This document shows positions 23,302-42,978 of a stretch of DNA of 64,000 bases, one piece after another (positions within the stretch are counted from its first letter, which is position 1; each line of letters begins with the position of its first letter). The stretch lies in contig NZ_JAABOO010000003.1 of the NCBI RefSeq assembly GCF_010671605.1, positions 747,993 to 811,992 on the forward strand. The letters are read 5' to 3'. The position numbers and the translations under genes were made by a program. Origin of the DNA: Leptobacterium flavescens. GTDB taxonomy: Bacteria > Bacteroidota > Bacteroidia > Flavobacteriales > Flavobacteriaceae. The notes beneath the pieces were generated by a model that was given only the letters and a program-made list of their open reading frames with translations, was not told where the DNA came from and did not search any database.

Positions 23302-23333
23302 TTTGGTTCATAAACTAACAATTGTTAGTTTTG
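23302..23333 (+). promoter_or_regulatory. Promoter of the paa operon
   Basis: TTTG at 23302-23305 (-33) and TAGTTTTG at 23326-23333 (-7) are 20 bases apart, a good Bacteroidota promoter pair, 30 bases before the paaE start. Confidence 0.65.
23312..23331. promoter_or_regulatory. 20-bp perfect palindrome, probable PaaR operator
   Basis: AAACTAACAATTGTTAGTTT is a perfect palindrome placed between the -33 and -7 elements and overlapping the latter. Binding there would block the polymerase. A related site (13 of the central 16 bases) occurs at 35800-35815. Confidence 0.8.
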
Positions 23334-25723: not shown

Positions 25724-26479
25724 ATGGAGAAAAAGAATTTAGTTCAATATATATACGGCATAGCTGATAATGCTCTGATATTGGGGCAGCGTCTTTCGGA
25801 ACTTTGCGGGCATGGCCCCAGTTTGGAAACCGATATAGCTCTTACCAATATTTCATTGGATCTGCTGGGGCAGACCAGGAGTTATTATCAATATGTGGCT
25901 TTGTTGGAAGGGGAAGGGAAAACAGAAGATGATATCGCTTTTCTCAGAACGGAAAGGCAGTATAAGAGTGTGCTTTTGGTAGAACAACCCAATACGGATT
26001 TTGCTTATGTAATTACAAGGCAGTTTCTTTTTGATGCGTTTCATCTGGCCCTGCTTGAGAAGTTACAGCACAGTAAAGACGATACCCTGAATGCTATTGC
26101 CCGAAAGGCGATCAAAGAAGTAAGCTATCATTTGAGATTTTCAGGTGATTGGGTTAAAAGGCTGGGAGACGGAACCGACATAAGTAAACAAAAGGTACAG
26201 GAGGCCGTAAACATGCTCTGGACCTATACTGATGAATTATTTCATCTTACCGAGGCTGATAGCGAAGCTGTTGCCGAAGGAATAGGTGTTGATGTTTCAC
26301 AGCTAAAGGAAGATTATTACGGAAAAGTGAAGGAACTGCTGGAAGAAGCAACCCTGGAAATTCCGGAGAGTAAATATTTTCAGAAAGGCGGAAAACAGGG
26401 GATCCATACGGAACATATGGGTTACCTGCTGGCAGATCTGCAGTATATGCAGCGTGCCTATCCCAATATGAAGTGGTAA
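25724..26479 (+). CDS. paaC: Phenylacetyl-CoA 1,2-epoxidase, structural subunit PaaC
   Basis: A 251-residue ferritin-fold partner of PaaA, needed for complex stability but without a di-iron site. It shows LGQRLSELCGHGPSLETDIALTNISLDLLGQ (read in parts) and YHLRFSGDWVKRLGDGT. It lies between paaB and paaD with gaps of 1 and 9 bases, suggesting coupled translation. Confidence 0.95.
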   Translation: MEKKNLVQYIYGIADNALILGQRLSELCGHGPSLETDIALTNISLDLLGQTRSYYQYVALLEGEGKTEDDIAFLRTERQYKSVLLVEQPNTDFAYVITRQFLFDAFHLALLEKLQHSKDDTLNAIARKAIKEVSYHLRFSGDWVKRLGDGTDISKQKVQEAVNMLWTYTDELFHLTEADSEAVAEGIGVDVSQLKEDYYGKVKELLEEATLEIPESKYFQKGGKQGIHTEHMGYLLADLQYMQRAYPNMKW

Positions 26480-26488
26480 ATAAAAGTT

Positions 26489-26992
26489 TTGACAATAACA
26501 GAGGACAAACATATCGATCAGAAACTGATCCCCATTCTTAAAAAAGTGTCGGATCCGGAGATCCCTGTGCTTTCTATCCTGGATATGGGAGTGGTTCGTT
26601 CTGCAGTTATTGTGAACAACAAAGTTGAAGTTATTATCACCCCAACGTATAGCGGTTGTCCTGCTATGGATGTTATAGGTGAAGATATCTCAAAAGCCCT
26701 GGAAGATGCAGGTTACGAATCTGAAGTTAAGCTGGTGCTTTCACCGGCCTGGACCACAGATTGGATCACCGAAGAAGGAAGAGCAGCCTTAAAAGCGTAT
26801 GGAATTGCTCCTCCCCTTGAAGCGGAAGCTGATAAGGAAGCCCTCCTGGGAAATAAAAAAATAGTGAACTGCACCAATTGCGGTTCTTCCAATACAAAAT
26901 TGGTTAGTCAGTTCGGGTCTACGGCATGCAAAGCTTTGTTTCAATGCGAGGATTGCCAGGAACCGTTCGATTATTTTAAATGTTTAAAATAG
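26489..26992 (+). CDS. paaD: Epoxidase maturation protein PaaD
   Basis: A 167-residue protein with an N-terminal MIP18/SufT-like domain (LSILDMGVVRS, TPTYSGCPAMD) and a C-terminal zinc-ribbon-like part with two CxxC pairs (CTNC and CEDC) plus further cysteines. PaaD is needed for the epoxidase, probably for metal-centre assembly. The start is TTG at 26489; no early ATG is available. Confidence 0.92.
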   Translation: MTITEDKHIDQKLIPILKKVSDPEIPVLSILDMGVVRSAVIVNNKVEVIITPTYSGCPAMDVIGEDISKALEDAGYESEVKLVLSPAWTTDWITEEGRAALKAYGIAPPLEAEADKEALLGNKKIVNCTNCGSSNTKLVSQFGSTACKALFQCEDCQEPFDYFKCLK

Positions 26993-27048: not shown

Positions 27049-27831
27049 ATGAGCGAATCAATACAACTTACTATTGATAAGGGTGTAGCTTTTATAAGGC
27101 TAAACCGCCCGGAGGTATTTAATAGTTTTAACAGGGAAATGGCCCTTAATCTGCAGGCTAAACTGGATGACTGCGAGAGTAATGATGAGGTAAGAGCGAT
27201 AGTGCTTTCGGGGAATGGCAAAGCCTTCTGTGCAGGCCAGGACCTTAAGGAAGTAACCAATCCCGATGAGCATCCCGGATTCAGGAAAATACTGGAAGAG
27301 CATTATAATCCCATTATAGAACGTATACGGCAAATTGAAAAACCCATCATAGGTGCGGTTAACGGTGTGGCTGCCGGAGCAGGAGCAAATATTGCCCTGG
27401 CATGCGATGTGGTGGTAGCATCTGAAGCAGCTGCATTTATTCAGGCTTTTAGTAAAATAGGCTTGATCCCTGATAGCGCGGGAACCTTTTTCCTTCCCAG
27501 ACTGATAGGTTTTCAGAAAGCATCGGCGCTGGCCATGCTCGGAGATAAAATAGATGCGGTGGAAGCAGAACGGATCGGGATGATCTACAAATACGTTCCG
27601 GCAGAAAGTTTTGAAGAGGAAATACAGAAACTGGCCTTTAAAATGGCGGCAATGCCAACCAGAGCATTTGCGCTTACTAAAAAAGCATTGAATGCATCTT
27701 TGGTAAACGATCTGACTGCACAACTGGCCCTGGAATCCGATTTACAGATCCAGGCGAGCGAAACCCATGATTATAATGAAGGGGTAAACGCTTTTGTGGA
27801 AAAGCGAAAACCAAATTTTACCGGAAAATAA
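27049..27831 (+). CDS. paaG: 1,2-epoxyphenylacetyl-CoA isomerase PaaG (crotonase family)
   Basis: The 260-residue crotonase-fold enzyme turns the ring epoxide into an oxepin-CoA. Oxyanion-hole regions are AFCAGQDLKEV (about 62-72) and GVAAGAGANIALACD (about 105-119). The first crotonase gene after the epoxidase genes is usually paaG; a paaF-like relative lies at 34067. The assignment rests on order and overall similarity. Confidence 0.87.
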   Translation: MSESIQLTIDKGVAFIRLNRPEVFNSFNREMALNLQAKLDDCESNDEVRAIVLSGNGKAFCAGQDLKEVTNPDEHPGFRKILEEHYNPIIERIRQIEKPIIGAVNGVAAGAGANIALACDVVVASEAAAFIQAFSKIGLIPDSAGTFFLPRLIGFQKASALAMLGDKIDAVEAERIGMIYKYVPAESFEEEIQKLAFKMAAMPTRAFALTKKALNASLVNDLTAQLALESDLQIQASETHDYNEGVNAFVEKRKPNFTGK

Positions 27832-27897: not shown

Positions 27898-29061
27898 ATG
27901 ATCAAAAAGGTAGGAATCATCGGTTCGGGAACAATGGGAAGTGGAATTGCCCAGGTAGCAGCAACCGCAGATTGTAGTGTTAAGGTGTTTGATACCAACC
28001 TGGATGCTTTGGACAGGAGCAAAAATGTCCTGGAAAAAGTATTGACAAGGCTGGTGGAAAAAGGAAGAATTGATACGGAGGAAAAACAAAGAATACAGGG
28101 CAATATCAGTTACGTACATACCCTGAAGGATCTGGGAGATTCTCATCTGATCATCGAGGCCATCGTAGAGAAACTGGATATCAAGCAAAAAGTCTTTTCA
28201 GAACTGGAAACATATATTGCTCCGGACAGTATTCTGGCGTCCAACACTTCTTCTTTGTCCATAGCTTCTATTGCCGCAGCTTGCGACAGACCGGATCGGG
28301 TAGTAGGGATACATTTTTTCAATCCTGCTCCACTGATGAAACTGGTAGAGGTCGTTCCTGCCGTACAAACGAGTGCTGATGTGCTGGACAAAGCGGTAAC
28401 GACCATTAAGGAATGGAAAAAAGTGGTAGCGGTGGCTAAAGATACTCCCGGGTTTATTGTAAACCGTGTTGCCAGACCGTTTTACGGAGAAGCTCTGAGA
28501 ATATATGAAGAAGGATTGGCAGATTTTGCAACGATTGACTGGGCTTTAAAGACAAAAGGAGGCTTCAGGATGGGGCCTTTTGAACTGATGGATTTTATCG
28601 GGAATGATGTGAATTATACGGTAACGGAAACCGTATTTACAGCCTTTTATTACGATGCGAGGTACAGACCTTCCTTCACTCAAAAACGCTTGTCTGAAGC
28701 GGGTTATCTCGGAAGAAAATCAGGAAGAGGATATTACGATTATACAGAAGGAGCGGAGAAGCCGGAACCTGAACAGGATGAAGCTTTGGCTAAAGAGATA
28801 TTTGAAAGGGTACTTGTAATGCTGATCAATGAAGCAGCCGATGCGCTGTTCCTGAATATCGCATCCGCAGAAGATATAGATAATGCCATGACCAGGGGAG
28901 TGAATTATCCGAAGGGGTTACTCTCATGGGCAGATGAAATGGGGATTGATTGGTGTGTAAAGACATTGGACGGACTCTACGATGAATATCATGAAGACCG
29001 ATACAGGTGCAGCCCGTTGCTGAGAAAAATGAATCAAAAAGGAGAAACTTTTTTTAATTAA
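27898..29061 (+). CDS. paaH: 3-hydroxyadipyl-CoA dehydrogenase PaaH
   Basis: A 387-residue NAD-dependent 3-hydroxyacyl-CoA dehydrogenase. The Rossmann motif is GSGTMGSGIAQ (about 9-19); HFFNPAPLMKLVEVV (about 139-153) and NRVARPFYGEA mark the catalytic and C-terminal parts. It oxidises 3-hydroxyadipyl-CoA late in the phenylacetate pathway. It is somewhat longer than simple dehydrogenases of about 285 residues because a second C-terminal domain is present. Confidence 0.93.
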   Translation: MIKKVGIIGSGTMGSGIAQVAATADCSVKVFDTNLDALDRSKNVLEKVLTRLVEKGRIDTEEKQRIQGNISYVHTLKDLGDSHLIIEAIVEKLDIKQKVFSELETYIAPDSILASNTSSLSIASIAAACDRPDRVVGIHFFNPAPLMKLVEVVPAVQTSADVLDKAVTTIKEWKKVVAVAKDTPGFIVNRVARPFYGEALRIYEEGLADFATIDWALKTKGGFRMGPFELMDFIGNDVNYTVTETVFTAFYYDARYRPSFTQKRLSEAGYLGRKSGRGYYDYTEGAEKPEPEQDEALAKEIFERVLVMLINEAADALFLNIASAEDIDNAMTRGVNYPKGLLSWADEMGIDWCVKTLDGLYDEYHEDRYRCSPLLRKMNQKGETFFN

Positions 29062-29064
29062 TAT

Positions 29065-29475
29065 ATGATCAAAGGAGAAGCTATTCCACATAAGATGTTA
29101 AGTCTTGATCCTTTCAGCAGATGGCTGGGGATTGAAATTCTGAGTTGCGAGATAGGAAGTTGTAAAGTGGGAATGACAGTCAGAAAAGAAATGCTTAACA
29201 GTATGGGAAAGGCTCATGGAGGGATCAGTTATGCCCTGGCAGATACCGCCTTTGGATTTGCAGCTAATACGCATGGCAAATATGCGGTTTCTATTGAAAC
29301 TTCAATTAATCATATAGAAGCACTGGAGGAAGGCGATTATATCGTTGCCGAATCAACTATAGAAAAAGTAAAGAATAAATTAGGTTTTAATATTATAGAA
29401 GTTAAAAGAGGAGACGAGTTGATAGCCCTGTTCAAGGGAATAGTATACCGTACTGCTAAGGACTGGGAGGAATAA
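29065..29475 (+). CDS. paaI: Phenylacetate-pathway thioesterase PaaI
   Basis: A 136-residue hotdog-fold acyl-CoA thioesterase, with GKAHGGISYALADTAFGFAAN (read in parts) in the central helix region. PaaI removes CoA from dead-end or ring-hydroxylated products and protects the CoA pool. It begins 3 bases after paaH. Confidence 0.92.
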   Translation: MIKGEAIPHKMLSLDPFSRWLGIEILSCEIGSCKVGMTVRKEMLNSMGKAHGGISYALADTAFGFAANTHGKYAVSIETSINHIEALEEGDYIVAESTIEKVKNKLGFNIIEVKRGDELIALFKGIVYRTAKDWEE

Positions 29476-29490: not shown

Positions 29491-30042
29491 ATGGGAAGCT
29501 TTTTTAAGACAAAGATCAATATTGAAAAAATAATGGCCTTTCTCGCTTTTGTAGTAAGTATTTGCACGCTCTACCTTTTCTTTCATCAGACTTCGCTCAT
29601 GAGAAAACAGCAATATGCTAGTGTACTCCCATATCTGGAAGTCGGAAATACCGAAAATAACGGTAATTACGGTTTTGTTTTGAATAATAATGGAATAGGC
29701 CCTGCTTTTATTGAGGAAATAAATATTCATTATAAGGATTCGGTATATCGCAATACGGATATTAATGATTTTTATGTCAAAGTGATGGTAAAGCAGGACA
29801 CCCTGTTTAAAGGATCGACTGTTTTTCATTCCACGATCAGGAAAGGAATGCTTGTTCCGGAGAGGGAAGTAAAGTATATGCTCGGATTAAGAAAGGAAGT
29901 AAAGAATTTTGAGATACTGCATCAGCAATTGCGGGAATGGTTGAATAATAAAATTAGAGTAGAAATAAAATATTCGTCAGTCTATAAGGAAAAGTGGCGT
30001 ATTATATACCCGGGGCAGGACACTCCGGAAAAAATTAAATAA
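29491..30042 (+). CDS. Membrane-anchored protein of unknown function inside the paa operon
   Basis: A 183-residue protein with one N-terminal membrane helix (about 14-33) followed by a beta-rich soluble domain (YGFVLNNNGIGPAFIEEINIHY). I recognise no family. It lies 15 bases after paaI and 86 bases before the thiolase gene, in the same direction, so it is probably co-transcribed. Its A/T content appears higher than that of its neighbours, which could mean a late insertion. No role in phenylacetate breakdown can be assigned. Confidence 0.7.
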   Translation: MGSFFKTKINIEKIMAFLAFVVSICTLYLFFHQTSLMRKQQYASVLPYLEVGNTENNGNYGFVLNNNGIGPAFIEEINIHYKDSVYRNTDINDFYVKVMVKQDTLFKGSTVFHSTIRKGMLVPEREVKYMLGLRKEVKNFEILHQQLREWLNNKIRVEIKYSSVYKEKWRIIYPGQDTPEKIK

Positions 30043-30128: not shown

Positions 30129-31352
30129 ATGAAAGAAGCATTTATCATAGATGGAATAAGAACAGCCATCGGAAAATATAAAGGAACCCTGTCGGCCGTA
30201 AGGGTAGACGATCTGGGAGCCATTGTTATTAAGGAACTGATGAAGAGGAATTCGGATGTTCCGGCAGAGGCCATAGATGATGTGATCATGGGATGTGCCA
30301 ATCAGGCGGGAGAAGATAACAGGAATGTAGCGAGAATGTGCCTTTTACTGGCAGGATTGCCCTGGTCGGTACCCGGAGAAACGGTAAACAGGCTTTGTAG
30401 CTCGGGAATGTCGGCAATTATACATGCCAACCGGGCGATAAAGGCCGGAGACGGTGATGTTTTTATAGCGGGAGGAGTAGAGAATATGACGCGCGGACCC
30501 TACGCTATTGCCAAACCTTCTTCAGCCTTCGGAACCGATGCCAAAATGTACGATACCAGTTTCGGATGGAGGTTTATCAATCCTAAGATGCATGAACTCT
30601 ACGGGACTGACGGAATGGGAATGACAGCCGAAAACCTGGTGGATAAATTCAATATCTCCAGAGAAGATCAGGATAAGTTTGCTCACTGGAGCCAGGTAAA
30701 AGCCACTAAAGCCCAGGAATCCGGCAGACTTGCTAAAGAGATCGTAAATGTGGAGATCCCTCAGAGAAAAAAGGATCCGATTAATTTCAATTCGGACGAA
30801 TTTATAAAACCCACTACCACTCCTGAGATCCTGGCTAAACTGAGACCGGCTTTCAGAAAAGAGGAAAAAGGAGGTACGGTAACTGCGGGTAATGCTTCCG
30901 GATTGAATGACGGAGCGGCAGCTACCCTGATCGCTTCCTCGGATGCAGTAGAAAAATACGGATTGAAGCCTATGGCAAAGATCGTTTCATCGGCAGTCGT
31001 GGGTGTGGAACCCAGGATTATGGGGATAGGTCCTGTATTTGCCAGTAGAAAAGCCCTGGAAAAAGCCGGATTGACATTGGATGAAATGGACATCATTGAG
31101 ATAAATGAAGCTTTTGCAGCGCAGAGCCTTGCCTGTACAAGAGAACTCGGATTGGCAGATGACGATCCGAGGATCAATCCTAACGGAGGAGCTATTGCAA
31201 TCGGTCACCCATTAGGAGTTACAGGAGCAAGAATAATGCATTCGGCTGCTTTAGAACTGCAGGAGAGCAATAAGAAATACGCCCTGGTAACCATGTGCGT
31301 AGGTGTCGGGCAGGGATATGCCACTATCATTGAAAATGTAAATGTAGAATAA
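30129..31352 (+). CDS. paaJ: 3-oxoadipyl-CoA / 3-oxo-5,6-dehydrosuberyl-CoA thiolase PaaJ
   Basis: A 407-residue thiolase that cleaves the beta-oxidation intermediates of the pathway to acetyl-CoA and succinyl-CoA. The nucleophile Cys is in NRLCSSGMSAI (about 87-97), and the C-terminal motifs NEAFAAQSLA, GHPLGVTGAR and CVGVGQG are present. Length is normal for the family. It could equally be named pcaF; the surrounding genes favour paaJ. Confidence 0.92.
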   Translation: MKEAFIIDGIRTAIGKYKGTLSAVRVDDLGAIVIKELMKRNSDVPAEAIDDVIMGCANQAGEDNRNVARMCLLLAGLPWSVPGETVNRLCSSGMSAIIHANRAIKAGDGDVFIAGGVENMTRGPYAIAKPSSAFGTDAKMYDTSFGWRFINPKMHELYGTDGMGMTAENLVDKFNISREDQDKFAHWSQVKATKAQESGRLAKEIVNVEIPQRKKDPINFNSDEFIKPTTTPEILAKLRPAFRKEEKGGTVTAGNASGLNDGAAATLIASSDAVEKYGLKPMAKIVSSAVVGVEPRIMGIGPVFASRKALEKAGLTLDEMDIIEINEAFAAQSLACTRELGLADDDPRINPNGGAIAIGHPLGVTGARIMHSAALELQESNKKYALVTMCVGVGQGYATIIENVNVE

Positions 31353-31436: not shown

Positions 31437-33941
31437 ATGACTAAAATAGGAAATTATATTACCGGTAAATGGGTAGATGGTAAAGGAGAACATACTCCAG
31501 TCTATGATTCTGTCACTGGCGAATTTATAGCGCATTCTACCACAGACGGCCTGGATATTCCGGAAGTGCTTCAATACGGAAGGACAACGGGAGGGGCTGT
31601 GCTTCGTAAAATGACCTTCCAGGAAAGAGGGAATATGCTTAAAAAACTGGCATTGTACCTCACCAAACGCAAGGATAAGTTTTATGAATTGAGTTATAGA
31701 ACAGGAGCAACCAAAATAGATAGCTGGATAGATATAGAAGGAGGATTTGGGAATTTGTTTGCCAATGCTTCTTTAAGAAAACTCTTTCCCAATCAATCTT
31801 ATCACGTAGAGGGAGAACCGATCGACCTGTCGCGTGGCGGACGCTTTATGGCACATCATATTATGGTTCCCAAAAGAGGGGTAGCTGTTCATATAAACGC
31901 TTTTAATTTCCCTGTCTGGGGGATGCTGGAAAAATGTGCGGTAAACTGGATGGCCGGAATGCCGGCAGTGGTTTTACCGGCACCGCAAACCGCGTATCTG
32001 GCAGAGGCTGTGGTAAAAGAGATCATCGATTCAGGAATACTTCCCGAAGGAGCCCTTCAGTTACTGAGTGGTCTGACAAAGAATATCCTCGATACGGTAG
32101 GATCTCAGGATGTAGTGACTTTTACGGGATCGGCAAGTACAGGAAGATTACTTAAAGCACATCCGAGGATCGTTCAGGAAGCAGTTCCCTTTACAATGGA
32201 AGCAGATTCCCTTAACGCATCTGTTCTCGGAGAAGATGCCAAACCGGGCACACCGGAATTTGACCTTTTCATAAAAGAAGTAAGAAATGAAATGACGGTA
32301 AAATGCGGGCAGAAATGTACCGCTATACGAAGGATCATTGTTCCTGAAAACCTCATGGAAGATGTACAGATTGCTTTAGGAAAACAACTGGACAAGGTAA
32401 CCATCGGAGACCCCCGACTTAAGGAGGTAAGAATGGGAGCCCTGGTAAGCAGGGATCAGTTGGCCGAAGTAAAGAACAGAGTTAATGAAATTGCCAAAAC
32501 GGCACAGATCGTATATGGAGATCTGGACAAGATAGAAACGGTTGGGGCAGACGCCGAAAAAGGAGCGTTTATCAAACCTATCCTCCTGAGAGAGGACGAT
32601 CCGTTTAAAAATACTGCAGTACATGAAACGGAGGCATTCGGACCTGTAAGTACCATTATGCCTTATAAGAACCTGGAAGAAGCTATCGAACTCAGCCATA
32701 TGGGTAAAGGTTCCCTGGTATCTTCCATAGCTACTTATGATGATAAAGCTGCAAAGGAATATGTAGTAGGGGCAGCCAGCCATCACGGACGTATCCTGGT
32801 ATTGAACAGAGAAAATGCCAAGCAGAGTACGGGGCACGGATCCCCGCTTCCGAACCTGGTTCACGGAGGACCCGGAAGAGCAGGAGGAGGAGAAGAAATG
32901 GGTGGAATGCGCGGTGTGAAGCACTATATGCAGCGTTGCGCAGTTCAGGGAACCCCGACAACATTAACCGAGATTACCGGGATTTATCAGGCTAATGCCA
33001 AGTATAAAGAAGCAGAAAAGCATCCTTTTGCGTATTACTGGGAGGATATAGAGCCTGGAATGTCCATTAAAACACATAAGAGAACGATCACAGATTCAGA
33101 TATCATCAACTTTGCAAACCTGACCTGGGATCACTTCTATGCACATACAGATATCACTTCCCTTAAGGGATCTATTTTTGAAAAGCGTACCGCTCACGGA
33201 TACTTTATCCTGGCAGCAGCGGCAGGTCTTTTTGTATACCCGAACAAAGGTCCGGTAGCAGCAAACTACGGTTTGGAAGAATGCCGTTTTTTACGTCCGC
33301 TTTATCACAACGATACTGTTTATGTGAGATTGACCTGTAAACAGAAGGTAGACAGGGATTCCAGAGGAAAAGAACTGCCAAGCGGAATTGCAAAGTGGTT
33401 TGTTGAGGTCTTCGACCAGGAGAATGAACTTGCAGCGGTGGCAACCATCCTGACCATGGTTCAGAAAAGATCGCCTTTTGAAGAGATAAACCGCTCCAAT
33501 ATTGAAACCTATCTCGGTAAATTAACCGAAGATTCCAAAGGAGCCTGGGGAATACTGACACCACAGCATATGATAGAGCATCTGGAGAACAGTCTCAGAA
33601 TTGCAAGTGGAGAGATTGCAGGTATTGAAATTGCAACCCCGGCAGAATACCTTGAGAAGGTACAGGAGATGGTATACAACCATAACCCAATGCCAAAGGA
33701 GTATGCACATCCCTTACTTAAAAAAGGAGAGCTGGAAGAGCTGAGACATGCAAACCTGGAAGAGGCAAAAGCCAAATTCCTGGAGGCTTATGATCAGTTC
33801 GAAGCTTATTTTAAAGAAAACCCGGAAGCTATTACCATAGATCCGGTTTTCGGGGAAATGGAAAAATTTGAGTGGGATCTGCTTAACAAGAAGCATTTTA
33901 ATCATCATTTTTCACAATTCGGATTGCTATCCGAACTGTGA
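31437..33941 (+). CDS. paaZ: PaaZ: aldehyde dehydrogenase / oxepin-CoA hydrolase with extra DUF1569-like domain
   Basis: PaaZ opens the oxepin-CoA ring and oxidises the aldehyde formed. The 834-residue product has an aldehyde dehydrogenase domain (about 1-515; catalytic CGQKC near 288-292) and a MaoC-like hydratase domain (about 530-680; TWDHFYAHTD). About 150 more residues follow. The usual PaaZ ends near 680. The extra part (TPQHMIEHLENS, then NKKHFNHHFSQFGL at the end) resembles DUF1569 of the DinB superfamily, a four-helix fold that often binds a metal through histidines. The DUF1569 call is from motif memory, not a search. Confidence 0.9.
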   Translation: MTKIGNYITGKWVDGKGEHTPVYDSVTGEFIAHSTTDGLDIPEVLQYGRTTGGAVLRKMTFQERGNMLKKLALYLTKRKDKFYELSYRTGATKIDSWIDIEGGFGNLFANASLRKLFPNQSYHVEGEPIDLSRGGRFMAHHIMVPKRGVAVHINAFNFPVWGMLEKCAVNWMAGMPAVVLPAPQTAYLAEAVVKEIIDSGILPEGALQLLSGLTKNILDTVGSQDVVTFTGSASTGRLLKAHPRIVQEAVPFTMEADSLNASVLGEDAKPGTPEFDLFIKEVRNEMTVKCGQKCTAIRRIIVPENLMEDVQIALGKQLDKVTIGDPRLKEVRMGALVSRDQLAEVKNRVNEIAKTAQIVYGDLDKIETVGADAEKGAFIKPILLREDDPFKNTAVHETEAFGPVSTIMPYKNLEEAIELSHMGKGSLVSSIATYDDKAAKEYVVGAASHHGRILVLNRENAKQSTGHGSPLPNLVHGGPGRAGGGEEMGGMRGVKHYMQRCAVQGTPTTLTEITGIYQANAKYKEAEKHPFAYYWEDIEPGMSIKTHKRTITDSDIINFANLTWDHFYAHTDITSLKGSIFEKRTAHGYFILAAAAGLFVYPNKGPVAANYGLEECRFLRPLYHNDTVYVRLTCKQKVDRDSRGKELPSGIAKWFVEVFDQENELAAVATILTMVQKRSPFEEINRSNIETYLGKLTEDSKGAWGILTPQHMIEHLENSLRIASGEIAGIEIATPAEYLEKVQEMVYNHNPMPKEYAHPLLKKGELEELRHANLEEAKAKFLEAYDQFEAYFKENPEAITIDPVFGEMEKFEWDLLNKKHFNHHFSQFGLLSEL

Positions 33942-34066: not shown

Positions 34067-34819
34067 ATGACAAAACCATACGTACATATAGATATACAGG
34101 ATGGGATCGGGACAATTGAATTTTTTCACCCAGCCCATAATTCCCTGCCTGGTGATATTTTAAGCCAGCTGGCTAAAACCATAACCGTAGCCGGAGAAAA
34201 TGAAGATATAAAGGTAATTGTATTGAAAAGTGGAGGCGATCGTACATTTTGTGCAGGAGCCAGCTTTAAAGAACTGATAAATATTAATGATGAGGCTACA
34301 GGAAAGGTGTTCTTTTCAGGTTTTGCCAATGTTATCAATGCCATGAGAAAATGCCCTAAATTCATTATCGGGCGCGTACAGGGAAAGACTGTCGGAGGAG
34401 GAGTAGGTATTGCATCGGCAATGGATTACTGTATGGCTACCAAATTTGCCTCTATTAAACTCAGTGAGCTTAATGTGGGGATAGGTCCTTTCGTGGTCGG
34501 GCCTGCAGTTGAACGTAAACTGGGCTTATCGGGAATGTCACAGATTGCCATAGATGCCAATACTTTTTATCCGGCTTCCTGGGCTCAGGAAAAAGGATTG
34601 TTCACTCAGGTGTTCGACAGTACGGAAGAATTGGATGAAGGTGTAAAAGCCTTTGCGGAAAACCTGTGCAATTACAACCCGGAAGCAATGAAAGAGATGA
34701 AAAAAATGTTCTGGCAGGGCACAGAGCACTGGGATACCTTACTGGCAGAAAGAGCTTCTATAAGCGGAAGACTGGTTCTGTCTGATTTTACGAAGGAAAC
34801 CCTGAAGAGGTTTAAATAA
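34067..34819 (+). CDS. paaF: Enoyl-CoA hydratase/isomerase, probable PaaF
   Basis: A 250-residue crotonase-family enzyme. Motifs are TFCAGASFKEL (about 60-70) and GKTVGGGVGIASAMDYCMAT (about 107-126). In the pathway PaaF hydrates 2,3-dehydroadipyl-CoA. It is more divergent than the PaaG-like gene at 27049, so an isomerase role or another crotonase reaction remains possible. It is 125 bases after paaZ, the widest gap in the cluster. Confidence 0.75.
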   Translation: MTKPYVHIDIQDGIGTIEFFHPAHNSLPGDILSQLAKTITVAGENEDIKVIVLKSGGDRTFCAGASFKELININDEATGKVFFSGFANVINAMRKCPKFIIGRVQGKTVGGGVGIASAMDYCMATKFASIKLSELNVGIGPFVVGPAVERKLGLSGMSQIAIDANTFYPASWAQEKGLFTQVFDSTEELDEGVKAFAENLCNYNPEAMKEMKKMFWQGTEHWDTLLAERASISGRLVLSDFTKETLKRFK

Positions 34820-35190: not shown

Positions 35191-35787
35191 ATGATCTATT
35201 CATTTAAAGGATTTATACCGGTAGTTCACGAAAGCGCGTTTATTCACCCTCAGGCGGCGGTAACGGGAAATGTGATTATCGGAAAAGATGTTTACGTCGG
35301 ACCCGGAGCAGCTATTCGCGGCGACTGGGGAGAAATTGTTATTGAAGACGGATGTAATGTACAGGAAAATTGTACCCTGCATATGTTTCCCGGAAAGAGT
35401 ATGAGGTTAAAAGAAGGAGCTCATATAGGCCATGGAGCTATTATTCACGGGGCCAATATCGGAAGGAATGTATTGGTGGGAATGAATTCGGTACTGATGG
35501 ACGATGTGGAAATAGGTGATGAATGTATCATCGGGGCCCTGGCTTTCATTAAAGCAGAGACCGTGATCCCGGACAGGAAACTGGTAGTGGGGAATCCGGC
35601 TAAAATTATTAAGGATGTAAGCGATGAAATGATCGCATGGAAGACCAAAGGTACTGCCTTGTATCAGAAGTTGCCGAAAGATTGTTACGGATCCCTCCGA
35701 GCTGTGGAGCCGTTGAGGGAGATACCTGAAGACAGACCTACCCAGGAAGCTTTTTACAAAACTCTGGAGGAATTCAGGAAAAAATAA
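35191..35787 (+). CDS. paaY: PaaY-like gamma-carbonic-anhydrase-family hexapeptide protein
   Basis: A 198-residue left-handed beta-helix protein with hexapeptide repeats (VTGNVIIGKDVYVGPGAAI, HGAIIHGANIGRNVLVG). His residues in the GHGAIIHGA region match the zinc site of the gamma class. PaaY is reported to act as a thioesterase on ring-hydroxylated CoA side products. Context supports this name. Confidence 0.88.
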   Translation: MIYSFKGFIPVVHESAFIHPQAAVTGNVIIGKDVYVGPGAAIRGDWGEIVIEDGCNVQENCTLHMFPGKSMRLKEGAHIGHGAIIHGANIGRNVLVGMNSVLMDDVEIGDECIIGALAFIKAETVIPDRKLVVGNPAKIIKDVSDEMIAWKTKGTALYQKLPKDCYGSLRAVEPLREIPEDRPTQEAFYKTLEEFRKK

Positions 35788-35799
35788 ACGTATTATTAT

Positions 35800-35822
35800 A
35801 CTAACAAACATTAGTTAACTAA
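35800..35822. promoter_or_regulatory. Second PaaR-type operator, before the 2-oxo acid dehydrogenase genes
   Basis: ACTAACAAACATTAGT (35800-35815) matches the paa operator core at 13 of 16 positions. It overlaps a perfect 12-bp palindrome TTAGTTAACTAA (35811-35822) that ends one base before the ATG at 35824. No good -7 element was seen. If bound, it would act at the 5' end of a local transcript or as a roadblock to read-through. Confidence 0.55.
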
Positions 35823-35823
35823 A

Positions 35824-37119
35824 ATGTCAGTTGTAGAACTTAGAATGCCCAAAATGGGTGAAAGTATTTCAGAAGCAACCATAATCAACTGGTTGAAAAA
35901 TGTTGGAGATACGATCGAAGAAGAAGAAACCATCCTGGAAGTGGCCACAGATAAAGTAGATTCAGAAGTTCCGTCTCCCTGTAACGGGGTGATCAAGGAA
36001 ATTCTCTTTCAGCCTAACGATGTGGTTCCGGTGGGAGAGGTACTGGCAATTATCGAGGCTTCCGGAGAACTTCCTAAGAAGAGGGAACAAACCGAAGCGC
36101 CTATTGCAAAGCCATCGGCTGCAGGAAATACAAAAACGGCAACCGCTGGGAAGAGCAGTTTTGAATTGAGGAATTCGCCCAATCCCGATGCTTTCTTATC
36201 TCCTTTGGTGATAAGCATTGCACAAAAAGAAGGCCTTTCTATTGAGGAAGTACAAAGTATTCAGGGAACGGGAACAGACGGAAGGATACGCAAAAGCGAT
36301 CTGTTTAATTATCTTAAACACAGAAAGTATCCGCTTCCGAGCAGGCCACAACCTCAGGTTACAACCCCTGCTTCTTCCTATAATCCCCCACCGATCAGTT
36401 TTACGGAAGGAAAGGACCGTATTGTGGAGATGGACAGGATGAGGGCGATGATAGCAGATCATATGGTGTACTCCAAGCACACCTCACCTCATGTTACCTG
36501 CTATATAGAAGCCGATGTGACTACTATTGTTAACTGGAGAAACAAGGTGAAAGCAGATTTCCAGGAGAAATACGGAGAGAAACTCACCTTCACACCCATT
36601 TTTGTAGAGGCTGTATCCAAAGCGATTGCCGATTTCCCGATGATCAATGTGTCTGTAGACGGGAAAAAGATCGTGGTACACAGCGATATTAATGTTGGAA
36701 TGGCAACTGCACTGCCCAACGGAAACCTGATCGTTCCGGTGGTGAAAAATGCAGATAAAAAGAATATGGAAGAACTTGCCGGTGAGGTAAATCACCTGGC
36801 CAACAGTTCCAGAAATAATGCTTTGAAACCCGATGAGATACAAGGGAGCACGTTTACGATCTCTAATGTGGGAACATTCGGAAGCTTAATGGGAACTCCT
36901 ATTATCAACCAGCCCGAAGTGGCTATTCTGGCACTGGGGATCATTAAGAAAAGAGCAGAAGTGATCAGTACCGAGAAAGGCGATGAGATAGCCATCAGGA
37001 GTATGATGTATTTATCACTCTCATTCGATCACAGGGTGGTAGACGGATACCTCGGTGGATCTTTCCTGAGAAAAGTAGGTGATTATTTGGAAGAATTTGA
37101 CGAAAACAGACAGATATAA
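35824..37119 (+). CDS. 2-oxo acid dehydrogenase E2 (dihydrolipoamide acyltransferase)
   Basis: This 431-residue E2 takes the acyl group from E1 and transfers it to CoA. The lipoyl domain (about 3-78) has the lipoate Lys in ATDKVDSEV. The E3-binding domain is at about 125-162 (FLSPLVISIAQKEGL, GTDGRIRKSDLFNYL). The catalytic domain (about 200-428) has SLSFDHRVVDG with the active His. No E3 gene is in the window, so a shared lipoamide dehydrogenase must come from elsewhere. The next gene starts 20 bases later. The substrate may be branched-chain or aromatic; see the finding on this cluster. Confidence 0.93.
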   Translation: MSVVELRMPKMGESISEATIINWLKNVGDTIEEEETILEVATDKVDSEVPSPCNGVIKEILFQPNDVVPVGEVLAIIEASGELPKKREQTEAPIAKPSAAGNTKTATAGKSSFELRNSPNPDAFLSPLVISIAQKEGLSIEEVQSIQGTGTDGRIRKSDLFNYLKHRKYPLPSRPQPQVTTPASSYNPPPISFTEGKDRIVEMDRMRAMIADHMVYSKHTSPHVTCYIEADVTTIVNWRNKVKADFQEKYGEKLTFTPIFVEAVSKAIADFPMINVSVDGKKIVVHSDINVGMATALPNGNLIVPVVKNADKKNMEELAGEVNHLANSSRNNALKPDEIQGSTFTISNVGTFGSLMGTPIINQPEVAILALGIIKKRAEVISTEKGDEIAIRSMMYLSLSFDHRVVDGYLGGSFLRKVGDYLEEFDENRQI

Positions 37120-37139
37120 ATAAAAAGAACAAAGGTGTT

Positions 37140-38210
37140 ATGACGAATGATATAAAAATAAACAGAGTGGAGAGATCTAAAATAGATCAACTCGACTTCG
37201 ATAATATCCCGTTGGGGAGAGCTTTTACAGATCATATGTTTATCTGTGATTATGAAGATGGAGAATGGAAAAATGCCAGGATTGAACCTATGGGGATGAT
37301 CCCTATGCACCCTGCGGCTATGTCATTGCATTACGGGCAGGCAATTTTTGAAGGCTTGAAGGCTACCCTGAATAAGGAAGGAGAACCTTTGCTTTTCAGA
37401 CCTGAGCAAAATGCCAGACGTTTAAATTTCAGCGCCAGGAGAATGGGAATGCCCGAAGTACCGGAAGAATTGGTACTGGAAGCCCTGGATATTCTGATAG
37501 ATATGGAATCTCAGTGGATCCCACGTGAGGAAGGGAGTGCGCTTTATATTCGCCCTTATATGTTTGCCGATGAAGGTTTTATCGGGATGAGAGCAGCCAC
37601 TTCCTATAAGTTTATGATTATTTGTTCTCCGGCAGGACCTTTCTTCAGCAAACCGATCAAATTGTATGCGGAAACCGAGTTCATCCGTGCAGCTGTGGGC
37701 GGAACGGGAGAAGCAAAAGCCGCAGGTAACTATGCAGCAGCTATTTTACCTACGGAAAAGGCCAAAAGAAAAGGCTATGATCAGGTTTTGTGGCTGGATG
37801 CCAAAGAGTTTAAATACGTACAGGAAGTGGGAACTATGAATATCTTCTTTAAGATTAACGGTAAGTTTATCACTCCGGCCCTGGATGGAGCCATCCTTGA
37901 GGGGATTACCAGAAGTAGTGTGATCACGCTGCTGAAGGACAAGGGGTATGAAGTAGAAGAAAGAAGGATAAATATAGAAGATATCATAGCCAGTGCAAAA
38001 GACGGCTCCCTGGAAGAAGCCTTTGGAACGGGAACAGCGGTAGCTATAGCAATGATAGAGGAAATAGGATATAAGGACGAGCGTATAAAGATCTCCGATA
38101 AGCATGAAGTAGGGCAATGGGTCATGGACACCCTTAACGGGATCAAATCGCAGAAAATAGAAGATCCTTACGGTTGGATGAGACCGGTAGGAGGAAAATT
38201 AAAAGTTTAA
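37140..38210 (+). CDS. ilvE: Branched-chain-type amino acid aminotransferase (class IV)
   Basis: A 356-residue PLP enzyme of fold type IV, in the long BCAT form. The PLP Lys is in GTGEAKAAGNYAA (about 185-197); SLHYGQAIFEGLKA (about 61-74) and EVGTMNIFF are also typical. It should transaminate Leu, Ile and Val and possibly Phe, giving 2-oxo acids for the dehydrogenase encoded on both sides of it. The placement between E2 and E1 genes suggests one catabolic unit. Confidence 0.9.
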   Translation: MTNDIKINRVERSKIDQLDFDNIPLGRAFTDHMFICDYEDGEWKNARIEPMGMIPMHPAAMSLHYGQAIFEGLKATLNKEGEPLLFRPEQNARRLNFSARRMGMPEVPEELVLEALDILIDMESQWIPREEGSALYIRPYMFADEGFIGMRAATSYKFMIICSPAGPFFSKPIKLYAETEFIRAAVGGTGEAKAAGNYAAAILPTEKAKRKGYDQVLWLDAKEFKYVQEVGTMNIFFKINGKFITPALDGAILEGITRSSVITLLKDKGYEVEERRINIEDIIASAKDGSLEEAFGTGTAVAIAMIEEIGYKDERIKISDKHEVGQWVMDTLNGIKSQKIEDPYGWMRPVGGKLKV

Positions 38211-40285
38211 AATTAGATACTGTTTTGAAGACAAAGGAGGCAATAGATAAAAAGGTTTTAAAGAAGGGATATTCAAATCTTTGTACTGCCAAGGCCATGG
38301 CGATCCTGTATGAAGATAATTTTAAAATGGTATCCAAATACGTGCACGCAACTTCAAGAGGGCATGAAGCAATACAGACGGCCCTGGGAATGCAGTTGCT
38401 GCCTCAGGATTATGCATTTCCTTATTACAGAGACGATGCCATGCTCCTGGCCCTGGGGATGCAGCCTTACGACCTTATGTTGCAGTTACTGGCAAAGAAG
38501 GACGATCCTTTTTCAGGAGGGCGTACGTATTACTCCCACCCGAGTTTAAGAGATGATGATAAACCCAAGATCCCGCACCAGTCTTCAGCAACAGGGATGC
38601 AGGCAATTCCGGCAACCGGGGTAGCCATGGGATTCTGGTATAAAGAGAATACGGGAATTGATGAAAAACTCGAAGATAAACCTTTTGTGGTTTGCTCGCT
38701 GGGAGATGCTTCGGTGACTGAAGGAGAGATTGCCGAAGCTTTTCAGATGGCGGCTCTTAAGCAATTGCCTATTATGTACCTGGTACAGGACAACGGATGG
38801 GATATCTCTGCAAATGCCGAAGAAACCCGTGCTCAGGATGCATATGAATACGCTCAGGGATTCCACGGACTGGAAGCTATTTCCATAGACGGAGCAAATT
38901 TTATTGAAAGTTATATTGCTGTCGAAAAGGCAATTAAGATCATACGTGAGGAAAGAAGACCGATCCTGGTACATGCCAAGGTTCCGCTTCTGAATCATCA
39001 TACCTCGGGAGTTCGGATGGAGTGGTACAGGGATGACCTGGAAGAAGCCAGATCCAGAGACCCTTATCCGGTACTGAAACAACAGCTTTTGGACCACGGT
39101 TTTTCCGCGGAGGAAGTAGATGCTATAGAGGCGGAAGCTGTGCTGAAGGTGAAAAAGGACTTTGAAGAAGCTCTGAAAGCGGAAGACCCTAAACCTGAGG
39201 ACTTGTTTACCCATGATTTTGCACCGAGTCCGATAACTGAGGAAAAAGGAGAGAGAGCTCCTGAAAATGCCGAAAAAGTGGTAATGGTGGATTGTGCTCT
39301 TTTTGCGGTTGAAGAATTAATGAAAAACAATAAAGAATGCCTGCTGTACGGACAGGATGTAGGAGGGAGACTTGGAGGCGTATTCAGAGAAGCAGCTACC
39401 CTTGCACAGAAATTCGGAGATGAACGGGTGTTCAATACCCCGATCCAGGAGGCATTTATTGTAGGTTCAACCGTGGGAATGTCTGCGGTTGGCTTAAAAC
39501 CCATTGTTGAGGTCCAGTTTGCCGATTATATCTGGCCGGGACTAAATCAGTTGTTCACAGAGGTGAGCCGATCCTGTTACCTGACTAACGGAAAATGGCC
39601 GGTATCTATGATCCTCAGAGTACCTATCGGGGCTTATGGAAGTGGAGGACCTTACCATTCTTCATCTGTAGAATCGGTAGTTACCAATATCAGGGGAGTT
39701 AAGATCGCCTATCCGAGTAATGGTGCCGACCTGAAAGGATTAATGAAAGCTGCTTATCATGATCCCAATCCGGTGGTCATCTTCGAACACAAAGGCCTAT
39801 ACTGGTCTAAAGTTCCGGGAACTGAAGCGGCCAGGACGATAGAACCTGCGGAAGATTATGTGCTTCCTTTCGGAAAAGCAAACGCGGTAAGGGAAATATG
39901 GAAACAGGATGATGAAGAAACCCTAACGGTAGTAACCTATGGTATGGGAGTACATTGGGCCTTAAATGCTTCGGAAGAATGGAAAGAGCAGGTAGAGATC
40001 ATCGATCTGAGAACTCTTTTCCCTCTGGATGAAGAAGCTATACTGGCATCGGTGAAGAAAACCGGAAAATGTCTGGTGGTAACCGAGGAACCCGTAAATA
40101 ATTCTTTTGCAAGGAGCCTTGCCGGAATGATACAGGAAAAATGTTTTACCTATCTGGATGCCCCGGTAATGACCATTGGGTCTGAAAATATGCCTGCTAT
40201 TCCGCTTAACAGCACTCTGGAGCAAACTATGATCCCGTCGGCAGATAAAGTGAAGAAGAAAATTGAGGAATTACTCAAGTATTAA
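38174..40285 (+). CDS. Fused 2-oxo acid dehydrogenase E1 (alpha-beta)
   Basis: This 703-residue protein joins the thiamine-dependent E1 alpha part (about 35-345; GDASVTEGEIAEAFQMAA, VQDNGW) to the E1 beta part (about 365-700; LYGQDVG, PIQEAFIVGSTVGMSAVG). It decarboxylates a 2-oxo acid and loads the E2 lipoate. The frame can start at TTG 38174, overlapping ilvE by 37 bases, or at TTG 38225, 14 bases after it. The first 17 residues look like a by-product of the overlap, so the later start is likely. Fused E1 genes are usual in Bacteroidota. Confidence 0.92.
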   Translation: MDETGRRKIKSLKLDTVLKTKEAIDKKVLKKGYSNLCTAKAMAILYEDNFKMVSKYVHATSRGHEAIQTALGMQLLPQDYAFPYYRDDAMLLALGMQPYDLMLQLLAKKDDPFSGGRTYYSHPSLRDDDKPKIPHQSSATGMQAIPATGVAMGFWYKENTGIDEKLEDKPFVVCSLGDASVTEGEIAEAFQMAALKQLPIMYLVQDNGWDISANAEETRAQDAYEYAQGFHGLEAISIDGANFIESYIAVEKAIKIIREERRPILVHAKVPLLNHHTSGVRMEWYRDDLEEARSRDPYPVLKQQLLDHGFSAEEVDAIEAEAVLKVKKDFEEALKAEDPKPEDLFTHDFAPSPITEEKGERAPENAEKVVMVDCALFAVEELMKNNKECLLYGQDVGGRLGGVFREAATLAQKFGDERVFNTPIQEAFIVGSTVGMSAVGLKPIVEVQFADYIWPGLNQLFTEVSRSCYLTNGKWPVSMILRVPIGAYGSGGPYHSSSVESVVTNIRGVKIAYPSNGADLKGLMKAAYHDPNPVVIFEHKGLYWSKVPGTEAARTIEPAEDYVLPFGKANAVREIWKQDDEETLTVVTYGMGVHWALNASEEWKEQVEIIDLRTLFPLDEEAILASVKKTGKCLVVTEEPVNNSFARSLAGMIQEKCFTYLDAPVMTIGSENMPAIPLNSTLEQTMIPSADKVKKKIEELLKY

Positions 40286-40342: not shown

Positions 40343-40909
40343 TTATCTCCCGTTGGTGTTTCCGGGAGGATATTGTGACAGTATTTCTGTTACGAATTCA
40401 TTGATTCTTTCTTCTTTCTTTTCAATACTGGTATTGGTCAAAAAGCCTGTCCCTTTTCCTTGCCAGATCAGTTCTTTGGTCCTGGCATCTATAATATCAA
40501 TATACAGAGAGCCTTCTACACGTGTGCTGACGTTGTTGTAGAATCCGGGTCCGAATCCCCAGTAAGGATTGTAAAATCCGTAACCGAAACCGAAGCCGTA
40601 TCCATAACCAAATCTGTTATACACATCTACACGTTGGTTCTCTTTGGTAAAGATGCTGATCAGCAAATCGGGATCATCCGACTTGGCGAAGCCTTTATCC
40701 ACTAATTCATTATTGATGGCGCGCAAGATCCTTTTCTTATCTATATCTGAGATCTCAGCTTTATCGATCCCGGGTTTAAAGAAGGCAAAAGACTTGTACT
40801 GGCCAAAGGTGGCTTTTTTGTCGTAGTCCGACACAACTCTAACCGATACGCAGGAACTTACGAAAGCTGCTACCAGTAAGAGCAACAAGAGTGGTTTAAA
40901 TGTTTTCAT
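40343..40909 (-). CDS. DUF4136-family lipoprotein
   Basis: A 188-residue protein with a lipoprotein signal (LLLVAAFVSSC, lipid Cys at about 20) and the DUF4136 pattern (FGQYKSFAFF, ELVDKGFAKSDDPDLLISIF). A Gly/Tyr/Phe-rich insert (about 98-122) lies in the middle. Function unknown; expected in the outer membrane, facing the periplasm. It is convergent with the E1 gene. Confidence 0.85.
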   Translation of the reverse strand: MKTFKPLLLLLLVAAFVSSCVSVRVVSDYDKKATFGQYKSFAFFKPGIDKAEISDIDKKRILRAINNELVDKGFAKSDDPDLLISIFTKENQRVDVYNRFGYGYGFGFGYGFYNPYWGFGPGFYNNVSTRVEGSLYIDIIDARTKELIWQGKGTGFLTNTSIEKKEERINEFVTEILSQYPPGNTNGR

Positions 40910-40992
40910 AGAATGTAGCTTTTTGAGTTAATATTCATCTAAAACGTGTTATACAATTTACAAAATTCTGCTGTATCTAACGTCTTTAGCTC

Positions 40993-42978
40993 TCAAAATA
41001 AGCTCTCGTCTACTTTATTAGGAAGCGTTACTTTTAGATTTGGTTCTGCTTCCATAGCCCTTTTAATGGCAAAAATAGCTTCATCATTACGAGCCCAGCT
41101 TCTTCTGGCGATACCATTGTTCACATCCCAGAACAGCATGGATTTAAGACGTTTAGATGCCTCATTACTACCATCAAGAACCATACCAAAACCACCGTTT
41201 ATTACTTCTCCCCATCCAACTCCACCTCCATTATGGATGCTCACCCAGGTGGCTCCCCTGAAACTATCTCCTATAACATTATGGATGGCCATGTCTGCTG
41301 TAAACTGGGAACCGTCATAGATATTTGAGGTCTCCCGATATGGAGAATCGGTCCCACTTACATCGTGGTGATCCCTTCCGAGGACCACATAACCGATCTC
41401 CCCTTTTTCGATCGCTTTGTTAAAAGCTTCCGCAATTTTTATCCTTCCTTCGGCATCGGCATATAGGATCCTTGCCTGGGAACCTACAACCAGTTTATTT
41501 TCCTGAGCCCCCTTGATCCATCTGATATTATCAGCCATCTGCTGCTGTATTTCCGCCGGGGAGTTTTTCATGATCTCCTCCAGAACTTCACAGGCAATGG
41601 CATCTGTTCTGGCCAGATCTTCAGTTTTCCCGCTGGTACATACCCATCTGAAGGGCCCGAAACCGTAATCAAAACACATAGGTCCCATGATATCCTGTAC
41701 ATAGGAAGGGTATCTGAAACTTTTTCCGTCGGCAGCCATTATATCGGCTCCCGCTCTGGAAGCTTCCAGGAGAAAAGCATTCCCGTAATCGAAAAAATAA
41801 GTTCCTTTTGCCGTGTGGTTATTGATAGAGGCTGCATGACGCCTTAAGGTTTCCTGTACTTTCTCCTTAAACAATTCGGGTTGTGAAGCCATCATTTCAT
41901 TACTTTCCTCATAACTCAAGCCTACCGGATAATATCCGCCGGCCCATGGATTATGCAGGGAGGTCTGATCACTTCCCAGGTCGATATAAATATTTTCAGT
42001 ATCAAATTTTTCCCATACATCTACAATATTCCCCTGATAGGCAATAGAGACCACTTCCTTGTTTTCTTTTGCTGTTTTAACCCTGCCTGCCAGTTCATCC
42101 AGATCGGAGATGACTTCATCTACCCATCCCTGAGAATGCCTGGTTTCTGTTGCTTTGGGGTTTATTTCTGCACAAACCGTAATACATCCCGCTATATTCC
42201 CGGCTTTTGGCTGAGCCCCGCTCATTCCGCCTAATCCTGCAGTTACAAACAATTTTCCCTCCAGACCTTCGCCGTTTTTGGAGATCTTTCTTCCGCCGTT
42301 CAAAACGGTTATAGTGGTACCGTGAACAATTCCCTGCGGCCCTATATACATATAACTTCCGGCAGTCATCTGTCCGTACTGTGTAACCCCGAGGGCGTTG
42401 AATTTTTCCCAATCGTCCGGTTGTGAGTAATTGGGGATCATCATTCCGTTGGTCACGATTACCCTGGGAGCTTCCTTATGAGAAGGGAAAAGCCCCATGG
42501 GGTGACCTGAGTACATGACCAGGGTTTGCTCGTCATTCATTTCGGCCAGATACTTCATGGACAGCCTGTACTGGGCCCAGTTTTGAAACACTGCCCCGTT
42601 ACCGCCATAGGTGATCAACTCATGCGGATGCTGAGCAACGGCATAATCCAGGTTATTCTGTATCATCAGCATAATAGCTGCAGCCTGTTTTGATCTTGCC
42701 GGGTATTCATCAATAGGACGGGCGTACATTTTATAGTCGGGCCTTAGCCTGTACATATAGATACGGCCATATTTTTCCAGTTCCTCCCTGAATTCAGGCA
42801 AAAGAACGGCATGGTGCTCCTTGTCAAAATAACGCAAAGCGTTTTTCAAAGCCAGTTTCTTCTCATCCTCCGAAAGGATCTCCTTTCGCTTGGGAGCGTG
42901 ATTAATATTAGGGTCATAAGGTTTAGGTTGCGGTAATTTATTAGGGATCCCTTCTAAGATTTGTTCTTTAAAAGTCAT
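40993..42978 (-). CDS. hutU: Urocanate hydratase
   Basis: HutU adds water to urocanate, the second step of histidine breakdown, with tightly bound NAD+. The 661-residue product is about 100 longer than the common 550-residue form, as in other Bacteroidota. Typical stretches are LITYGGNGAVFQNWAQY, MYSGHPMGLFP, TAGLGGMSGAQPKA and FGFGPFRWVCTSG. No other hut gene is in the window. A TAGATTTG element (43067-43074, reverse) about 90 bases upstream may be its promoter. Confidence 0.95.
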   Translation of the reverse strand: MTFKEQILEGIPNKLPQPKPYDPNINHAPKRKEILSEDEKKLALKNALRYFDKEHHAVLLPEFREELEKYGRIYMYRLRPDYKMYARPIDEYPARSKQAAAIMLMIQNNLDYAVAQHPHELITYGGNGAVFQNWAQYRLSMKYLAEMNDEQTLVMYSGHPMGLFPSHKEAPRVIVTNGMMIPNYSQPDDWEKFNALGVTQYGQMTAGSYMYIGPQGIVHGTTITVLNGGRKISKNGEGLEGKLFVTAGLGGMSGAQPKAGNIAGCITVCAEINPKATETRHSQGWVDEVISDLDELAGRVKTAKENKEVVSIAYQGNIVDVWEKFDTENIYIDLGSDQTSLHNPWAGGYYPVGLSYEESNEMMASQPELFKEKVQETLRRHAASINNHTAKGTYFFDYGNAFLLEASRAGADIMAADGKSFRYPSYVQDIMGPMCFDYGFGPFRWVCTSGKTEDLARTDAIACEVLEEIMKNSPAEIQQQMADNIRWIKGAQENKLVVGSQARILYADAEGRIKIAEAFNKAIEKGEIGYVVLGRDHHDVSGTDSPYRETSNIYDGSQFTADMAIHNVIGDSFRGATWVSIHNGGGVGWGEVINGGFGMVLDGSNEASKRLKSMLFWDVNNGIARRSWARNDEAIFAIKRAMEAEPNLKVTLPNKVDESLF

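Follow-up and report, generated by a model that had tools for sequence, protein, structure and literature searches.

The phenylacetate (paa) cluster of Leptobacterium flavescens lies in a 64,000-nt window of contig NZ_JAABOO010000003.1, and all coordinates given here are positions within that window. The cluster closes with three genes for a 2-oxo acid dehydrogenase and an aminotransferase. Directly after a paaY-like gene (35191-35787, + strand; best match TIGR02287, 229.4 bits, below the cut-off of 319.6) come, on the same strand, E2 (35824-37119), a class IV aminotransferase of the branched-chain aminotransferase (BCAT) type (37140-38210), and a fused E1 alpha-beta chain (open frame 38174-40285), an order described in an earlier, sequence-only reading of this DNA and borne out by coordinates and domain matches. 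The gap between paaY and E2 is 36 bases and that between E2 and the aminotransferase 20. E2 combines a lipoyl domain (PF00364), an E3-binding domain (PF02817), and an acyltransferase domain (PF00198), all above cut-off, and an HRVVDG motif can be read directly in it. E1 carries thiamine-binding alpha and beta domains in one chain (PF00676, PF02779, and PF02780, all above cut-off), and the aminotransferase matches NF009897 and TIGR01123 above cut-off. Neither E1 nor E2 matches any NCBIfam model above cut-off. The best explanation for this arrangement, and quite probably the right one, is that E1 forms with E2 a dedicated phenylpyruvate dehydrogenase that feeds phenylacetyl-CoA to PaaABCE.

The rest of the cluster lies upstream on the same strand. 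Its first gene encodes a TetR-family regulator, a probable PaaR-like repressor (22694-23281; TetR-type NCBIfam matches, none above cut-off), and the spacer between this gene and paaE holds a perfect palindromic operator, ACTAACAATTGTTAGT (23314-23329). PaaE (23363-24436; TIGR02160), PaaA (24463-25419; TIGR02156, 540 bits), PaaC (25724-26479; TIGR02158), PaaD (26489-26992; TIGR02159), and PaaZ (31437-33941; TIGR02278, 892 bits) all score above curated cut-offs, and paaB (25438-25722) is an open reading frame (ORF) named by position and size alone. Between paaD and paaZ stand a gene for a paaG-like isomerase (27049-27831; best match TIGR02280, 310.7 bits, below the cut-off of 345.15), paaH (27898-29061) and paaJ (30129-31352), both ORFs named by reading and order, and paaI (29065-29475; best match TIGR02286, below cut-off), with a 183-aa ORF that has no Pfam match (29491-30042) between paaI and paaJ. 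A second enoyl-CoA hydratase gene (ech2, 34067-34819) lies between paaZ and paaY. A second operator-like site, ACTAACAAACATTAGT (35800-35815), precedes E2, starting 24 bases before the E2 start codon.

E1 is inherited together with this pathway. Among 199 Flavobacteriaceae genomes of at least 90% completeness, nearly all one per genus, PaaA (called above cut-off) occurs in 70, and E1 (called at E <=1e-150) occurs in 68 of those 70 and in none of the other 129 (Fisher p 1.3e-51, kinship ignored). In the two PaaA genomes without E1, the contig ends inside E2 (G179) or ech2 (G090). E1 lies on the same contig and strand as PaaA, 10.9-22.3 kb downstream, in 62 of the 68; it is on a separate contig in four and has moved in two. 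Kinship can be followed on a tree of another fused E1, a 668-aa paralogue, drawn for 81 genomes (41 with paa, 40 without) hand-picked from listed coordinates, and since E1 and PaaA never disagree within these 81, the two traits share a single label. The paa state changes 10 times on this tree, and E1 goes with paa in all six independent supported pairs (sign test p 0.03). Across 326 genomes of the class, 235 have both PaaA and E1, six PaaA only, nine E1 only, and 76 neither; some of this wider co-occurrence may reflect an aerobic life-style shared within lineages.

The gene order is conserved as well. Its conservation in related genomes had been proposed as a check, and paaY-E2-E1 indeed recurs across the family genomes and, on one strand, in 55 of 67 named E1 loci, mostly from Flavobacterium, 52 of the 55 with the aminotransferase between E2 and E1. 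Nine of the other 12 named loci are cut by a contig end, and three (L067, L070, L072) hold E2-E1 with no paa gene in reach. Most fetched family stretches follow, with small insertions, the order TetR-paaE-A-B-C-D-G-H-I-J-Z-ech2-paaY-E2-(aminotransferase)-E1; three family loci are rearranged (G152, G175, G038).

The sequence-only reading had seen no paaK gene in the window, and none emerges elsewhere in the genome, where that reading had expected one to refute it, from searches with PF14535, TIGR02155, and the AMP-binding proteins. The genome (4.21 Mb, 99.94% complete) has no match to PF14535, the PaaK C-terminal domain, which this search does detect in eight of 14 control genomes, E. coli included. 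The best listed genome match to the PaaK model TIGR02155 is a 65-position partial one of 48.8 bits. Seven of the eight AMP-binding proteins found in the genome were scanned (L012 was left out): two are acetate-CoA ligases, two have adenylation domains, one is malonyl-CoA-synthase-like (493 aa), one has FadD11 as its best match, below cut-off, and one matches no family at a limit of 1e-40. Two other kinds of route also start from phenylpyruvate, as the one proposed here does: a ferredoxin-linked one through indolepyruvate/phenylpyruvate:ferredoxin oxidoreductase (IorAB) and an aldehyde one through phenylpyruvate decarboxylase. The genome has four PF02775 matches, none of them IorA: acetolactate synthase, pyruvate:ferredoxin oxidoreductase, a pyruvate-oxidase-like protein, and a 332-aa chain identified by reading as pyruvate dehydrogenase E1 alpha.

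PaaK is rare among relatives too. Strong matches occur in two of the 199 family genomes, both among the 70 with PaaA (558 and 581 bits; model cut-off 646), and both genes lie inside the paa cluster, one between paaY and E2 (G079) and the other after E1 (G087). Neither a strong nor a distant PaaK-type ligase is found in 47 of the 70 PaaA genomes. Class-wide, 18 genomes have a strong PaaK match (E <=1e-100), just seven of them with PaaA, and 234 of the 241 PaaA genomes have none.

Plasmids of Saprospira present E1 in a different setting. An E1 relative occurs in 725 plasmid records, and identity reaches at least 60% in three, all from Saprospira and all with paaA. On NC_016936.1 and NZ_CP116809.1, a single strand carries TetR, E1, paaE, A, B, C, D, and lower-pathway genes down to a PaaY-like hexapeptide protein. 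Palindromes lie in the TetR-E1 spacer (ACGAACATTTGTTCGT) and before paaA (ACGAACAAGCGTTCGT); the records annotate E1 merely as a 'thiamine pyrophosphate-dependent enzyme'. No PaaK is annotated on the Saprospira plasmids, and tblastn with two family PaaK proteins, covering all of NC_016936.1 and 31 of the 53 kb of NZ_CP116809.1 (plasmids only), gives a best E of 0.88. On the same searched DNA, tblastn finds no match to E2 or the aminotransferase at 1e-15. The strongest single argument for the proposed phenylpyruvate dehydrogenase is that in Saprospira E1 belongs to the paa run and adjoins no branched-chain gene. NC_016936.1 (L296) also carries guaA, guaB, purB, purD, purF, purH, and purN, much of purine synthesis.

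In the proposed mechanism, a transaminase would first convert phenylalanine to phenylpyruvate; in many relatives this is probably the clustered aminotransferase, a presumed phenylalanine/phenylpyruvate transaminase, and in others it would be an enzyme encoded elsewhere. E1 and E2 would assemble into a phenylpyruvate 2-oxo acid dehydrogenase complex, sharing an E3 that is encoded outside the cluster; no E3 gene was noticed from paaY to position 40285, and no genome-wide search for one was made. Within this complex, E1 would decarboxylate phenylpyruvate on thiamine diphosphate and E2 would move the phenylacetyl group to CoA. Phenylacetyl-CoA would then pass straight into PaaABCE, bypassing free phenylacetate, PaaK, and ATP. 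Genomic context points to phenylpyruvate as the substrate, and the assembly of the complex and its regulation are likewise predicted. The sequence-only reading had suggested just such a path from phenylalanine through phenylpyruvate to phenylacetyl-CoA, and its two halves fare unequally: the dehydrogenase part is supported by the distribution of E1 (68/70 versus 0/129), and the aminotransferase part is weaker (41/68, see below).

The TetR regulator would co-regulate both gene sets, acting at palindromes before paaE and, here and in some other lineages, before E2. A match of 13 in 16 bases between the two sites had been reported earlier, and the count is exact: ACTAACAATTGTTAGT and ACTAACAAACATTAGT agree at 13 of 16 bases and are the sole two sites with at least 13 matches in the window. 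Half-sites (at least 11 of 12 bases) precede paaE in 41 of 42 family loci and E2 in 20 of 66. In 15 of those 20 the distance to the start is 23-24 bases. The E2 site is thus kept in about a third of these lineages. Elsewhere in the family loci, the half-site test is positive before the aminotransferase in 0/41, ech2 in 1/67, paaY in 0/65, paaZ in 1/63, paaJ in 0/63, and paaH in 0/62. At the named loci, most of which lack the E2 site, transcription may simply continue from paaY into E2. A Thermus PaaR-type pattern has no site at zero or one mismatch and 12 at two, the paaE and E2 sites among them.

Several observations weigh against a dedicated phenylpyruvate dehydrogenase. With 10 changes and six pairs on the paralogue tree, the kinship-aware evidence amounts to about 6-10 events, far below 199 genomes, and within the family nothing more than physical linkage may be needed to hold E1 and paa together. 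Of the family loci, 46 of 66 lack the E2 operator, as do 57 of 58 named loci. The paa-type aminotransferase (at least 62% identity) occurs in 43 of the 199 family genomes, 41 of them with PaaA, which leaves it in just 41 of 68 E1 genomes and missing from 27; some BCAT match exists in 198 of the 199, those of the listed lower group being 41-47% identical, and L. flavescens itself has a second copy (C4:468069-469112) with 42% identity to the clustered one. Two genomes (G107 and G043; loci L165 and L166) have a paa-type aminotransferase beside an ech2-like gene and no PaaA or E1 match, a pair that may have another use. Outside the family, 40 E1 loci were hand-picked from listed coordinates, mostly one per family; five come from genomes without a PaaA match, and some are shortened by contig ends. 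A paa gene is in reach in 15 of the 40 (14 without one weak paaE match) and an ech2 relative lies directly upstream of E1 on the same strand in seven, leaving 25 with no paa gene in reach, and 38 have no E2 beside E1.

Annotation alone would assign the trio to branched-chain amino acid breakdown, as a branched-chain 2-oxo acid dehydrogenase. The aminotransferase adjoining E1 is of the BCAT type above a curated cut-off, which also tells against phenylpyruvate; E1 and E2 belong to the general 2-oxo acid dehydrogenase family and share the domain families and their order with the branched-chain enzyme, and the nearest solved structures include branched-chain and pyruvate E1. This assignment is nonetheless unlikely: E1 occurs in none of the 129 genomes without PaaA, whereas a different fused E1 that resembles human branched-chain E1 alpha more strongly occurs in 167 of 199, and the Saprospira E1 sits within a paa run without aminotransferase or E2. 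Moreover, branched-chain 2-oxo acids must be oxidised to make iso-branched fatty acids, which are common in the whole of Flavobacteriaceae.

The other fused E1 is the 668-aa paralogue. A PF00676 search of the L. flavescens genome finds three fused E1 chains, of 668, 703 (the paa-cluster E1), and 803 aa, besides chains read as pyruvate dehydrogenase E1 alpha (332 aa) and 2-oxoglutarate dehydrogenase E1. The 668-aa paralogue is present in 69 of 70 PaaA genomes and 98 of 129 others; being spread regardless of paa state, it shows that the paa-cluster E1 is not the sole such enzyme of Flavobacteriaceae. With human branched-chain E1 alpha, its alpha half scores 171.7 bits and the paa-cluster E1 62.1; with Geobacillus pyruvate E1 alpha, the scores are 158.1 and 42.6. 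The paa-cluster E1 reaches 90.8 against the Thermus chain. The beta half of the paralogue is about equally like the Thermus (252.5 bits), Geobacillus (251.0), and human (240.3) chains, and thus like pyruvate and branched-chain E1 alike, and no NCBIfam model matches the paralogue above cut-off. The paralogue's distribution makes it unlikely that the paa-cluster E1 is the general branched-chain E1 of Flavobacteriaceae, with the caveat, itself a point against the phenylpyruvate reading, that a branched-chain role for the paralogue is not established by these comparisons.

Besides being fused and distant from human E1 alpha, the paa-cluster E1 differs from branched-chain enzymes at two positions of the presumed pocket, where Phe and Leu give way to Val and Thr. 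In an alignment to Thermus and human E1, its Val57 and Thr140 correspond to Phe and Leu in the 668-aa paralogue. Val57 is kept in 171 and Thr140 in 172 of 172 orthologue rows (one gap), which include copies of one genome under two names. The smaller Val57 and Thr140 might accommodate a larger side chain, a fit that is suggestive only; Thermus Phe66 alpha and human Leu164 alpha are presumed to line the branched-chain pocket, and this lessens the weight of the comparison.

E1 might instead act on several 2-oxo acids and not chiefly on phenylpyruvate. The BCAT neighbour is consistent with such breadth, as are the tryptophan 2,3-dioxygenase encoded on the Saprospira paa plasmids and the non-family loci, where the lack of an E2 beside E1 in 38 of 40 makes a shared E2 likely. 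The close co-occurrence with PaaA and the invariant presumed pocket residues point to one conserved role, and a broad-substrate enzyme is improbable.

Entry through free phenylacetate by an unrecognised acyl-CoA ligase, with E1-E2 serving something else, is highly improbable. The 493-aa malonyl-CoA-synthase-like protein (G000:C2:202269) and a 357-aa AMP-binding protein both lack a clear substrate, and within the family PaaA genomes have distant PaaK-like ligases (143-196 bits) somewhat more often (21/70) than other genomes do (21/129; Fisher p 0.03, kinship ignored), a further count against entry by E1. Both candidates, however, lie on contig C2 and the cluster on C3; none of the 21 distant ligases in PaaA genomes lies within 140 kb of PaaA (12 on other contigs, nine at 142-970 kb), and the L. 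flavescens genome has no ligase of this distant kind. Both strong family PaaK genes sit inside the cluster beside E2 or E1, and the co-occurrence of E1 would be left unexplained. Chance placement of E2-aminotransferase-E1, the alternative offered by the sequence-only reading, is excluded by the recurring order (55/67), the co-occurrence of E1 with PaaA, and the Saprospira E1 at the head of a paa run.

The proposed phenylpyruvate dehydrogenase has a functional precedent, by analogy, in PglB/C, a pyruvate dehydrogenase-like complex that, according to two papers, converts phenylpyruvate to phenylacetyl-CoA in L-phenylglycine synthesis in Streptomyces pristinaespiralis (PMC7089894; PMC10685826). 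A pyruvate dehydrogenase-like E1 is the proposed catalyst there too and an aminotransferase lies in the same operon, but PglB/C serves antibiotic biosynthesis with separate alpha and beta subunits, whereas the paa E1 is fused and would serve breakdown; the two are likened by function, not by sequence. The cluster shares PaaABC(D)E, PaaG, PaaZ, PaaH, PaaJ, PaaY, and a local regulator with the canonical pathway as outlined in PMC13186573, but here no PaaK is found and a 2-oxo acid dehydrogenase stands in the entry place. That survey anchors its gene-context step on the PaaK ligase and calls complete pathways uncommon in Flavobacteriia (PMC13186573). Since 234 of 241 PaaA genomes lack a strong PaaK match and 235 of 241 have E1, surveys so anchored would miss most paa clusters of the class. 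The route is not mentioned in the covered parts of the GapMind paper (PMC9007349), and an open-access full-text search, followed through titles and the starts of abstracts, found no description of a link between E1 and paa.

In a bolder reading, somewhat more likely than not, E1 founds a family of dedicated phenylpyruvate dehydrogenases through which the paa pathway of Bacteroidota has been entered by default since early on, with ATP-dependent PaaK a rare addition and the pathway serving mainly phenylalanine rather than phenylacetate. If E1 is a phenylpyruvate dehydrogenase, a widespread unnamed enzyme would gain a name, the ATP-dependent activation step would be spared, and many of these bacteria would be predicted to use phenylalanine and not free phenylacetate.

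The E1 frame is open from TTG 38174, within the aminotransferase gene. In many E1 orthologues, an ATG stands in frame at the place of residues 21-24 of this chain. L. flavescens has ATA at residue 24, with TTG 38225 as the closest start-like codon, and translation probably begins at that TTG or near 38243.

Small insertions in the cluster of relatives include a PALP (pyridoxal-phosphate) enzyme between paaG and paaH (L106, 3476-4411) and a putative zinc metallopeptidase between paaI and paaJ (L118, 6034-6894); ORFs of similar size occupy these places in other relatives, one of each having been scanned. Three loci titled Rhizobium sp. or Bifidobacterium breve (L049, L060, L081) have a Flavobacterium-type E1 and gene order and are probably mislabelled metagenome contigs. 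Divergent from the TetR gene lies a gene for a 588-aa aromatic amino acid hydroxylase (20687-22453, - strand; NF010657, 870 bits), where a second phenylalanine route, to tyrosine, probably begins. Besides the window, only L163 and L164 among the family loci have phenylalanine hydroxylase beside the cluster, many stretches being too short to show it. On its other side, at 40343-42978 on the - strand, the cluster is followed by an ORF of 188 aa and by a gene that reads as hutU-like (urocanate hydratase), which are also found in many relatives.

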